From Clostridiales bacterium (lineage in GTDB: Bacteria > Bacillota_A > Clostridia > Saccharofermentanales > Saccharofermentanaceae): a stretch of DNA of 31,003 nucleotides. Below are positions 1-21,679 of this stretch, in pieces. Under the pieces are notes generated by a model. That model made no database searches, was not told the DNA's origin, and saw only the letters and a program-made list of their open reading frames with translations. Both the position numbers and the translations under genes were made by a program. Positions within the stretch are counted from its first letter, which is position 1, and each line of letters starts with the position of its first letter. The DNA is taken from contig JAILHZ010000089.1 of the NCBI GenBank assembly GCA_024695545.1, positions 1 to 31,003 of the forward strand, read 5' to 3'.

Positions 1-1809
1 GAGAAAAATGCTGAGATCGAAGATGTTGACCAGCCGCGTCTGGGTGCTGATGAGGAGCCTTATTACGAAGGCACTATTGGTGATGAAGAGCCTGAAGATG
101 GTTATCCTCTTTTTATCTGCGGATCTATCGTCACTGACGATAATAAAGATGATCTTTCTTCCATCGAAGGTGTAACAGTTGCTGATGGTGGCAGCATAAA
201 ATATGATCCTGATTCGAATACTCTTTATCTCAATAAGGTAACGATCTCGCATACAACCGCAGAAAAGTATGGTATTCCTGTTGCAATCTGGTATTATGGT
301 TCGGCTGATCTGAAGATTTGTGTAGAAGGCGATACTTCTGTTTCTTCAGACATACCTGATTCGTACATGACTGGCGGAATATTCATTGGTCAACCCTATA
401 GTTATTATTATGGTTATGGTCCTGCAAGACTTCAGGCTGCTGAGGATAATGAACCGAAATTTGCCGGTTTAACTGTTGATATTTCCAATGACGCAACACT
501 GACCATATCAACAAAAGGCGAGAGCGCATATTATTATTATGATTATGGCTCATGTTCTCTTTATACTCAGGGTAGTGCAACGATTACAGGTAAAGGTGCA
601 TTTGTCATTACATCAAATTCTACGAGCATCAGTTGTGGATATCTGACGATAGAGAATGAAGGACCTTCTTCGATAACTACTGATGAGGGGGGAGCTATTT
701 ATGTAAACAGAGATTTGATGATCTCGAATGCAAAACTTACAATTGAAGCCGGTGATGACGGTATTTATGTAAACAGAGATGTGATAATTTCGAATGCAAA
801 ACTTACAATTGAAGCCGGTGATGACGGTATTTTCGCCAGTGGAACAATAACATTTACCGGAAAGAAAACAGAAGTTGTTATTACTGCAGAAGATACAGCT
901 GTTTATGCTTATGATGATTATGCAAGAAGCCATTATGAGGGGGATAATTATACTAATCTCGCTCCGGAAGATGTAATTAAGATTGAGGCCCCGCTTTATA
1001 TCCTCACTCCGGAAAATGGCTTTGTTTGCCACGATTCTAGTGATTTCGAAACGGATAGTGATCCGGATTACTACATTTGTGACCCTTCGATTCAATCTGA
1101 GTCTGATTATCATGACTATGACGATGTTGCAACCAAGGTTGTCATTAAGGCTGATCTGGTAAAGGTCGACTTTGAGACTAACGGCGGTTCTGAGATCGAA
1201 TCCCAGGATCTGGCGGTTGGTGAGACGGTTGAAAAACCGGCGGATCCGACAAAGTCCGGTTATGAGTTTGTTGGCTGGTTTACTGACAGTGAGTGCACTA
1301 AGGAATTTGACTTCTCTACAAAAGTTGATAAGGATATGACGCTTTACGCGAAGTGGGAAGAATGCGGTAAGTATGTCGTAGTTGCCGGTCCTTCCGGTTC
1401 CCGTGCTATCGGTGATGGCGACATGACGATTATTGTTAAGCACACCAAGCATGATGAAAAGACCCACGAGAAGTTTAAGGTGGTCAAGTTCAACGGAAAG
1501 CCTGTTGATGTAAAATCGGTCAAGAAGGGTAGCGCGATCATTACGATTGACGGTTCATTACTTGACAGTCTTGAGTCAGGCGATTACACGATCACGATCG
1601 AGTTTGAAGATGGTGAAGCTTCAACATTCGTTTCGATCCTCAACGCAGCACAGTCTGCGGCAGAAGATGCGGCTCCTACCGGAACCGGAGTTCCGAAGAC
1701 AGGTGATACATCATCTTCTTCGAATCTGGGATTTGTATTCCTGGCGGTTGCGGCAATTGCCGGTGCTCTGATCATTCTCGAAAATAAGAAGATGAGAGAA
1801 CAGGATTGA
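1..1809 (+). CDS. Sortase-anchored surface protein, C-terminal part (5' end outside window)
   Basis: The reading frame is open from base 1, so the start lies upstream; 602 codons are visible. The N-terminal visible part is Asp/Glu/Tyr-rich. It is followed by a beta-helix-like stretch of short strand repeats (about visible residues 160-310), including an almost exact 22-residue duplication. An InlB/Listeria-Bacteroides repeat (about residues 389-455, motif pattern NGG...GYxFxGW...LYAKW) comes next, then an Ig/X2-like domain of the kind often found just before wall anchors. The C-terminus has a VPKTGD sorting motif (residues 564-569), a hydrophobic helix and a short charged tail, as in sortase substrates. 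Inference: exported, covalently wall-attached, possibly carbohydrate- or host-binding. The ligand is unknown, and no sortase gene is in the window. Confidence 0.85.
   Translation, partial: EKNAEIEDVDQPRLGADEEPYYEGTIGDEEPEDGYPLFICGSIVTDDNKDDLSSIEGVTVADGGSIKYDPDSNTLYLNKVTISHTTAEKYGIPVAIWYYGSADLKICVEGDTSVSSDIPDSYMTGGIFIGQPYSYYYGYGPARLQAAEDNEPKFAGLTVDISNDATLTISTKGESAYYYYDYGSCSLYTQGSATITGKGAFVITSNSTSISCGYLTIENEGPSSITTDEGGAIYVNRDLMISNAKLTIEAGDDGIYVNRDVIISNAKLTIEAGDDGIFASGTITFTGKKTEVVITAEDTAVYAYDDYARSHYEGDNYTNLAPEDVIKIEAPLYILTPENGFVCHDSSDFETDSDPDYYICDPSIQSESDYHDYDDVATKVVIKADLVKVDFETNGGSEIESQDLAVGETVEKPADPTKSGYEFVGWFTDSECTKEFDFSTKVDKDMTLYAKWEECGKYVVVAGPSGSRAIGDGDMTIIVKHTKHDEKTHEKFKVVKFNGKPVDVKSVKKGSAIITIDGSLLDSLESGDYTITIEFEDGEASTFVSILNAAQSAAEDAAPTGTGVPKTGDTSSSSNLGFVFLAVAAIAGALIILENKKMREQD
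697..828 (+). repeat. 66-bp tandem duplication inside the surface-protein gene
   Basis: Two adjacent 66-bp units (697-762 and 763-828) encode the same 22-residue unit (YVNRD...ISNAKLTIEAGDDGI) with few base differences. The period is a multiple of three, so the frame is kept. It adds one rung to the predicted beta-helix. Confidence 0.9.
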
Positions 1810-1923: not shown

Positions 1924-1950
1924 TTGATTTTTATTCTATATATCTATAAT
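1924..1950 (+). promoter_or_regulatory. pnp promoter
   Basis: A perfect -10 TATAAT (1945-1950) is preceded by TTGATT (1924-1929) with a rather short 15-bp spacer. It lies between the upstream terminator and pnp. It predicts a transcript start near 1957 and a leader of about 125 nt, which holds the structure described at 1988-2076. Confidence 0.65.
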
Positions 1951-1987
1951 ATAGGTATGTTGCGTACTTTTGCGCGGTAAAAAGATT

Positions 1988-2076
1988 AAGGGGTGTAGTG
2001 GGTAGATTGATATCCCGTCTTGCACGGAGTATGAATCTACAAGCTACCTCCTTATAAAACTAAATAATTGGAGGTA
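1988..2076 (+). promoter_or_regulatory. Structured pnp leader with mutually exclusive SD-masking hairpin
   Basis: Structure A is a long hairpin, 1988-2053. 1988-1998 pairs with 2044-2053 (10 pairs, U1994 bulged), 2002-2008 with 2034-2040 (7 pairs), 2010-2013 with 2029-2032 (4 pairs) and 2015-2018 with 2024-2027 (4 pairs), leaving a 5-nt loop. Structure B pairs TACCTCC (2045-2051) with GGAGGTA (2070-2076), which contains the pnp Shine-Dalgarno. The TACCTCC segment lies wholly inside the 3' arm of structure A, so only one structure can form at a time. A leaves the ribosome site open and B closes it. Pairing is read directly from the sequence; the regulatory role is inference. It resembles the RNase III-cut leader stem of E. 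coli pnp in logic, not in sequence. Confidence 0.7.
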
Positions 2077-4481: not shown

Positions 4482-4558
4482 CGGGGTGTAGCTCAGTTGG
4501 CTAGAGTGCTTGCTTGGGGTGCAAGAGGTCGCCTGTTCAAGTCAGGTCACTCCGACCA
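4482..4558 (+). tRNA. tRNA-Pro (anticodon GGG)
   Basis: The gene is 77 nt including an encoded CCA. Acceptor CGGGGTG pairs with CACTCCG (one G-U pair). The D arm GCTC/GAGT, anticodon stem CTTGC/GCAAG with loop TTGGGGT (anticodon GGG), and T arm GCCTG/CAGGT with loop TTCAAGT are all present. It reads proline codons CCC and CCU. Confidence 0.96.
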
Positions 4559-20943: not shown

Positions 20944-20971
20944 GTTAATACTAGTTTTGTGGGAACGTGGT

Positions 20972-21679
20972 ATGGAAAGAAAGTATTTGCCTGAACATCA
21001 GAAACTTGAGGAGAAGATCTCCTATACCTTTACGGATAAGGAGTATCTGCTTCTTGCGCTTACACACTCCACCTATGCGTACGAGCATAGACGCGAAGGT
21101 GTGGTATCTAATCAGCGTCTGGAGTTCTTAGGTGATGCGATATTAGACTTTATCGTCGGTGAGGAAATGTATAAGAGCAAAGCCGACTGGGATGAAGGAA
21201 AACTTTCCAAGACCAGGGCACTTGTTGTCTGTGAAAAGACTTTGGCCAAGGAAGCCGAGAAACTTGAGGTCGGTTCGCTGCTTTTCCTGGGAAAAGGTGA
21301 AGAAGGAACCGGCGGCCGGGAGAAGATATCGACGCTTGCGGACACGATGGAGTCTCTTTTTGCGGCGATCTATCTGGATGGCGGGTTCGAATCGGCAAAG
21401 ACAGTAGTGCTTTCCACGCTGAAACCGTATATAGATCAGGCTCTGAAGGGTGAGCTGATATTTGATTATAAGAGCCGTCTTCTGGAAAAAGCACAGATCA
21501 GGCATGAGACACATCAGGTGCTTTTCAATGTGGTAAATGAAGACGGACCCGTTCATGACCGTACATTTGAGGTTGCCGTCCTGATCGACGGACAGGAGAT
21601 CGTCAGGGCGAAGGGCAGAAGCAAGAAACAGGCGGAACAGGAGGCGTCGAGACTGGCGCTGGAACTGTGGAAGAACTGA
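20972..21679 (+). CDS. rnc: Ribonuclease III
   Basis: The protein is 235 aa. The family signature NQRLEFLGDAILD carries metal ligands E51 and D55, and D124 and E127 complete the active site. A C-terminal double-stranded RNA-binding domain (about 160-233) ends in RSKKQAEQEAS. It cuts double-stranded RNA in rRNA precursors and structured leaders. ATG 20972 has only a weak GTGG-like site upstream. It precedes smc, as in many Firmicutes. Confidence 0.97.
   Translation: MERKYLPEHQKLEEKISYTFTDKEYLLLALTHSTYAYEHRREGVVSNQRLEFLGDAILDFIVGEEMYKSKADWDEGKLSKTRALVVCEKTLAKEAEKLEVGSLLFLGKGEEGTGGREKISTLADTMESLFAAIYLDGGFESAKTVVLSTLKPYIDQALKGELIFDYKSRLLEKAQIRHETHQVLFNVVNEDGPVHDRTFEVAVLIDGQEIVRAKGRSKKQAEQEASRLALELWKN

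Follow-up and report, generated by a model that had tools for sequence, protein, structure and literature searches.

PNPase is an enzyme central to RNA decay, and self-regulation of its level in a large group of gut bacteria is a question raised by the pnp leader on contig JAILHZ010000089.1 of a Clostridiales bacterium (assembly GCA_024695545.1), analysed here over its positions 1 to 31,003 (the window, 31,003 nucleotides). The first-pass annotation read this leader as a switch, in which a long hairpin carries a complement of the pnp Shine–Dalgarno (SD) region; cleavage of the stem by RNase III and degradation of its 5′ strand by PNPase would release this anti-SD and shut off translation. If this is true, the leader would show how PNPase controls its own synthesis in these bacteria and would supply an explicit translational step, namely masking of the SD by the freed strand.

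The pnp locus and its leader hairpin

A long double-stranded stem in the leader and a gene for RNase III, as expected for an E. coli-type pnp leader, are both present in the window (Table 1). The rnc gene lies approximately 17 kb downstream of pnp, and an RNase III gene was also found in 10 of 10 genomes checked besides the window itself. Directly downstream of pnp is a tRNA gene (4482–4555, + strand), while on the upstream side an inverted repeat of terminator form, uncalled by the terminator scan, can be recognised by eye near 1854–1886.

Table 1. Features of the pnp locus and leader (positions in the window).
Feature	Position	Strand	Basis
Surface-type protein gene upstream of pnp, with TIGR02543 repeat; not rpsO	367–1809	+	
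Promoter-like pair TTGATT (1924–1929) / TATAAT (1945–1950), 15-nt spacer	1924–1950	+	by eye, prediction only
Long leader hairpin, 27 pairs	1987–2054	+	folding and covariation
5′ strand segment holding the anti-SD in the intact hairpin	1990–1997	+	predicted fold
1×1 G.G mismatch (bases 2009 and 2033)	2009–2033	+	recurrent among pnp leader hairpins
Anti-SD TACCTCC within the hairpin 3′ arm	2045–2051	+	
pnp SD region GGAGGTA, complement of 2045–2051	2070–2076	+	
pnp, polyribonucleotide nucleotidyltransferase (PNPase), 751 aa	2082–4337	+	TIGR03591, 924.5 bits (cut-off 525)
rnc, ribonuclease III (RNase III), presumed hairpin cutter	20957–21679	+	TIGR02191, 220 bits (cut-off 166)

The promoter-like pair implies a predicted transcript start near 1957, upstream of the hairpin. 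By eye, the identical pair with the same spacing recurs in four related leaders (L001, L003, L004, and L006), with variants in three others (L005, L007, and L008); a consensus promoter scan, which needs a spacer of 16–18 nt, called no promoter. A centroid fold also contains a short hairpin at 1961–1976, near the predicted start, and GCG...CGC sequences resembling it were seen by eye at the same place in L001 and L003–L008. This small hairpin may serve as 5′-end protection.

Folding of positions 1985–2056 yielded a single hairpin with a predicted energy of −35.0 kcal/mol, corresponding to a z score of −6.72 against 200 dinucleotide shuffles (mean −15.99), none of which folded as well. Its extent agrees to within one basal pair with the stem of about 25 pairs at 1988–2053 that had been annotated. 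The helix is interrupted by a single-base bulge at 1994, a 2×2 internal loop (2000–2001/2041–2042), the G.G mismatch, and, 4 bp further in than the latter, a C.A mismatch (2014/2028). An intrinsic terminator or attenuator was ruled out, with no terminator-like site in 1750–2200 and no U run but TAAAACTAAA after 2054. Direct sequestration of the SD by the intact hairpin was likewise ruled out, the SD being located outside it.

Two mutually exclusive helices and a proposed switch

The exact complementarity between anti-SD and SD extends over 7 nt, as first annotated. In the hairpin the same anti-SD bases are paired with bases of the 5′ strand, so that the two helices are mutually exclusive and the earlier remark that the arm cannot pair with both partners holds. 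When the outer 5′ strand is omitted (2000–2082 or 2030–2082), the minimum-energy fold contains the arm:SD helix, and the predicted probability that the SD is unpaired falls from 0.35 to below 0.001. With the hairpin intact, the SD is predicted to be as free as it would be without the arm, and to be hidden once one strand has been removed. The leader thus has the two-helix architecture of an SD/anti-SD translational switch, i.e., two mutually exclusive helices with one over the SD. Taken alone, the arm:SD pairing of the window is only moderately above chance (z −2.2 against 100 dinucleotide shuffles of its own arm), and it is the comparative evidence described below that makes this helix convincing.

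A cis-acting negative feedback switch on pnp is the preferred reading, with a probability of roughly one half. Briefly, the freshly made leader would fold into the long hairpin, with the anti-SD tied up, the SD as free as its surroundings allow, and pnp translated. By analogy with E. coli, RNase III would then cut the stem, and the short 5′ strand would remain annealed to the 3′ strand, keeping the anti-SD occupied. Plentiful PNPase, again as in E. coli, would digest this 5′ strand from its new 3′ end, whereupon the freed 3′ arm would pair with the SD, which begins 19 nt downstream of the anti-SD, so that the ribosome would be blocked and pnp turned off. The computed energies place the duplex of cut 5′ strand and 3′ strand at −17 to −26 kcal/mol and the arm:SD helix at −11.9 kcal/mol; because the 5′ fragment binds more tightly than the SD, a nick alone should not suffice for switching, and the fragment should have to be removed.

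Covariation of both helices in related leaders

Relatives were collected by scanning genome contigs for pnp, of which the best 80 loci of 573 confirmed relatives were used, many of them from rumen and gut Clostridia; the closest among these 80 was L001, from Mageeibacillus sp. UBA1193. An identity filter, passed by 60 of 80 leaders, gave an alignment of 60 family-type leaders, the window included. In this alignment 91.1% of the cells of the hairpin are paired and 13 of its 27 pairs have changed on both sides, with a covariation score of 0.288 compared to 0.138 for shuffled alignments (0 of 500 as high); in slid registers pairing fell to 36–42%.

For the anti-SD helix, examined in an 11-pair register (alignment columns 93–103 with 136–147), the signal is above that of shuffled alignments on three of five measures. 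The fraction of paired cells was 71.0% versus 67.2%, the number of doubly changed cells 34 versus a mean of 21.3, and the covariation 0.133 versus 0.086 (0 of 500 shuffles in each case), while all slid registers scored lower (at most 57.2% paired and 0.085 covariation). The number of pairs with a double change (147 of 500 shuffles) and that of further pair types (236 of 500) were not above the shuffles in this 60-leader alignment. Since the core CUCC/GGAG hardly varies, the support for the anti-SD helix comes from its flanks, where, for example, U-A pairs are exchanged for G-C or C-G between arm bases 2052–2054 and SD-flank bases 2067–2069. In one further leader (L221) the arm and the SD have both diverged from the main clade, yet they remain complementary (residual −5.0; see below). 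Covariation in relatives, proposed at the outset as a check on the two helices, is therefore strong for the hairpin and moderate for the anti-SD helix, with two measures null, and the excess of doubly changed cells represents the compensatory change characteristic of an SD/anti-SD switch.

Distribution of the hairpin and its confinement to pnp

These loci were supplemented with sequences upstream of pnp from a draw on the class (148 genomes, of which 140 had PNPase), from further loci of the same class (31 genomes, 28 with PNPase), from the family of L005 (78 genomes, 73 with PNPase), and from the phylum (61 of 61). The resulting 333 records yielded 324 leaders, 297 of them distinct. A strong hairpin, defined as one below −22 kcal/mol with at least 20 pairs and within 70 nt of the start codon, occurs in 180 of the 297 distinct leaders, leaving 117 without one by that threshold. 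Counted by draw, all 46 distinct leaders of the family have it, compared with 60 of 124 in the class and 5 of 48 in the phylum. The hairpin is thus a feature of some members of the class Clostridia, and most leaders of the phylum draw lack it.

Two further hairpin subtypes were recognised in other Clostridia, both often with a G.G mismatch. The second, GUAGCUUGU...AGAGGUUAC, is found in L053, L056, L057, L068, and L147, and the third, UUAGCAGUUA...UAAGUGCUAA, in L114, L140, L154, L170, and others.

For the GUAG-type hairpin, a covariance model (R1) was built from 36 sequences and searched against 391 Clostridia genomes (E ≤ 0.01, strict filters, best 12 candidates per genome scored). Matches were obtained in 45 of the 391, each at pnp; at 38 loci pnp was located at the expected place by tblastn, and the other seven adjoin known pnp coordinates. 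No match away from pnp appeared among the best 12 candidates scored per genome at this threshold, so the element looks like a pnp-specific cis element, and a mobile inverted repeat can be ruled out on the same count.

A known Rfam element, such as a riboswitch or a ribosomal-protein leader of the S15 kind, was rejected as well, no match reaching the gathering score. The Rfam search of the window returned two tRNAs only, and that of 20 leader loci gave 11 weak matches, all below the gathering score. Unmatched in Rfam at these scores, the leader element can nonetheless be annotated from sequence.

Pairing of each arm with its own SD

The 180 hairpin leaders were clustered by shared 6-mers into 71 clusters, and the duplex energies of each arm with its own SD were compared with those for permuted SDs. 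Own pairs averaged −8.85 kcal/mol and permuted pairs −7.11 kcal/mol (z −7.2 to −7.3), with a permutation p value of 5 × 10⁻⁵, the least possible with 20,000 permutations; an earlier version with 68 clusters gave a Wilcoxon p value of 0.002 when the arm was kept constant and one of 0.09 when the SD was. Controls from the same leaders were all null (|z| < 0.5 in all five), comprising the upstream flank (z 0.47), the 5′ arm (−0.34), the 3′ arm against coding sequence (−0.23), the apical loop (−0.11, n = 70), and a far upstream segment (−0.13, n = 69). For hairpins before other genes a z score of −3.3 was obtained with loosely defined starts (n = 128), whereas stricter starts and removal of overlapping frames reduced it to −0.88 for 85 distinct hairpins and −0.65 for the 48 strong ones.

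The effect is concentrated in a subset of the clusters. A two-way residual of −3 or less was found in 20 of the 71, compared with 7.5% off the diagonal, and in all 20 of these, half or more of the arm bases engaged with the SD are paired in the hairpin. Examples are L062, from Ruminococcus bromii ATCC 27255 (GUAAAAUCC/GGAUUUUAC), and the leaders L073 (UUUUACCUCUU/AAGAGGUAAAA), L152, and L149. The clade of the window shows almost no variation in CUACCUCC and has a near-consensus SD, so that the pairing there could be generic. The own-SD effect seems to be pnp-specific, but the 71-leader cluster of the window enters the test as a single unit and its residual is modest (−1.3).

Own-SD pairing is absent in clusters L034, L042, L120, and L126 despite the same hairpin subtype, and many other hairpin-bearing clusters had no clear anti-SD in the 68-cluster test. 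Likewise, the representative of the second subtype (L045) has no own-SD pairing, and the third subtype is mixed, with strong pairing in L117, L149, and L170 and none in L114 and L140. Masking is thus not needed for the role of the hairpin in all species; we infer that, of the two elements, the hairpin is more general, the masking helix being frequent but intermittent among clades.

Predicted accessibility was compared in the same set. Upon removal of the 5′ strand, the unpaired probability of the SD drops from 0.55 to 0.03 in the 71-leader cluster of the window. Among the representatives of 69 clusters the mean change is from 0.54 to 0.35, with a decrease of at least 0.3 in 24 and a rise in one. 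The advantage of own over foreign arms was not significant here (0.347 versus 0.383, p = 0.11), because a CCUCC arm masks any GGAGG.

It is here that control by decay only, as in E. coli, has to be weighed. According to this explanation the stem is cut, the 5′ strand is removed, and the single-stranded 5′ end that results leads to destruction of the mRNA, in Clostridia presumably through RNase J or Y; the anti-SD of the window would arise incidentally, from a 3′ arm rich in pyrimidines opposite a 5′ arm rich in purines. Such a view is in keeping with the hairpin-bearing Clostridia that have no own-SD pairing, with the near-equal masking by foreign arms, and with the E. coli leader, in which a comparable hairpin is accompanied by a weak arm:SD pairing of −5.0 kcal/mol. 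It is opposed by the own-SD specificity over 71 clusters with its null controls and by the double-sided changes at 2052–2054/2067–2069, which involve SD-flank bases that the hairpin leaves unpaired, and we consider it rather unlikely.

A recurrent G.G mismatch in the stem

Counting 1×1 mismatches with at least 3 flanking pairs on each side, a G.G mismatch was detected in 34 of the 71 cluster representatives (110 of 180 leaders), compared with 72 of the 819 hairpins taken from these loci as controls (Fisher p = 1.6 × 10⁻¹⁵). The pairs flanking it vary among 91 rows, which were preselected for the mismatch and the stem, so that the pairing itself is selected. The pnp leader hairpin of E. coli K-12 (L213) carries a G.G mismatch too, the 5′-strand G of which, at −118, converts to genome coordinate 3311286. 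The same coordinate is the location given for the E. coli pnp RNase III site in a listing in PMC5371410; that listing consists of read-ratio peaks, and the coincidence is accordingly a hint and not a mapped cut. No paper was found on such mismatches in the substrates of bacterial RNase III, the sole literature match concerning human DICER. The mismatch provides a testable mark common to the pnp leaders of Clostridia and E. coli.

The enrichment of G.G while its flanking pairs vary suggests recognition, and a protein operator could account for it: a protein, either PNPase by way of its KH/S1 domains or a different RNA binder, would attach at the mismatch and repress or expose the SD of the uncut leader. 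A precedent may be the RNase III-independent translational repression by PNPase in E. coli that is reported in the title of a paper cited in PMC10362022. The 37 of 71 clusters without the mismatch do not fit this proposal, nor does it alone explain the anti-SD, and we judge an operator of this type unlikely.

Interpretation

Taken together, the original observation is confirmed, and is stronger than could be known from one sequence. Both helices, their mutual exclusion, their conservation, the own-SD specificity, the confinement of model matches to pnp, and the order of the duplex energies are computed results, and these, along with rnc in the window, favour the switch first proposed. The masking helix is not universal. 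Cutting, trimming, and masking would be the best fit to this pattern, the enzymatic steps being drawn by analogy with E. coli and the translational block being inferred.

In the remaining explanation the hairpin mainly stabilises the 5′ end, or is processed by RNase III, so as to raise expression, with the anti-SD helix as a minor folding alternative. This has a parallel in the S. aureus cspA leader but the opposite polarity to that predicted here, where the intact hairpin leaves the SD as free as in the absence of the arm and strand removal hides it, and is quite improbable.

A wider, tentative extension of the switch, less likely than not, is that the pnp leader of Clostridia acts as an enzyme-product riboregulator whose ‘ligand’ is its own removable antisense strand, left on the anti-SD by RNase III cutting. 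PNPase activity would be read as loss of this strand, upon which the arm flips onto the SD, and the G.G mismatch, shared with E. coli, would be an old mark of the class, serving pnp leaders for recognition or for positioning of the cut.

Comparison with known systems

RNase III control of pnp is known, whereas for the masking step and the present element no account was found. The literature consulted was open-licence, with most subscription papers outside it, and it yielded neither a description of SD masking by a freed strand nor one of a family of clostridial pnp leaders; term searches of PMC8040213 and PMC7247131 gave no mention of pnp, and that of PMC11780869 nothing on a pnp leader. The first-pass statement that no Firmicute pnp leader of this form had been described needs qualification. 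In the Firmicute Streptococcus pyogenes a stem-loop in the pnp 5′ UTR is cut by RNase III and feedback resembling that of E. coli has been proposed (Le Rhun 2017, as cited in PMC6431027); compared by description, it differs in that no masking step is mentioned in PMC6431027.

Repression of PNPase by RNase III is described as conserved in B. burgdorferi, S. coelicolor, S. pyogenes, and C. jejuni besides E. coli (PMC8708148), and R. sphaeroides is reported to show no RNase III effect on pnp mRNA (PMC7866481). The rpsO–pnp intergenic hairpin of Streptomyces is an RNase III processing site (PMC5872136), similar to the present hairpin in its location just upstream of pnp and different in being actinobacterial and located between rpsO and pnp. 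For S. aureus cspA, a review (PMC4419217) describes RNase III cutting of a long 5′ UTR hairpin that frees the SD and stabilises the mRNA; there too cutting of a 5′ UTR hairpin alters access to the SD, with the polarity reversed.

A further close parallel is the E. coli rpsO–pnp system, where RNase III cuts the leader and PNPase then digests the short RNA that protects pnp mRNA, further pathways including probable translational repression having also been reported (PMC10362022, PMC7866481). In both cases pnp is preceded by a long stem-loop whose stem contains a G.G mismatch, RNase III is encoded in the genome, and negative feedback is expected. The two leaders differ in the strength of the arm:SD pairing, which is weak in E. 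coli, and in the gene upstream, which is rpsO in E. coli and the surface-type protein gene in the window.
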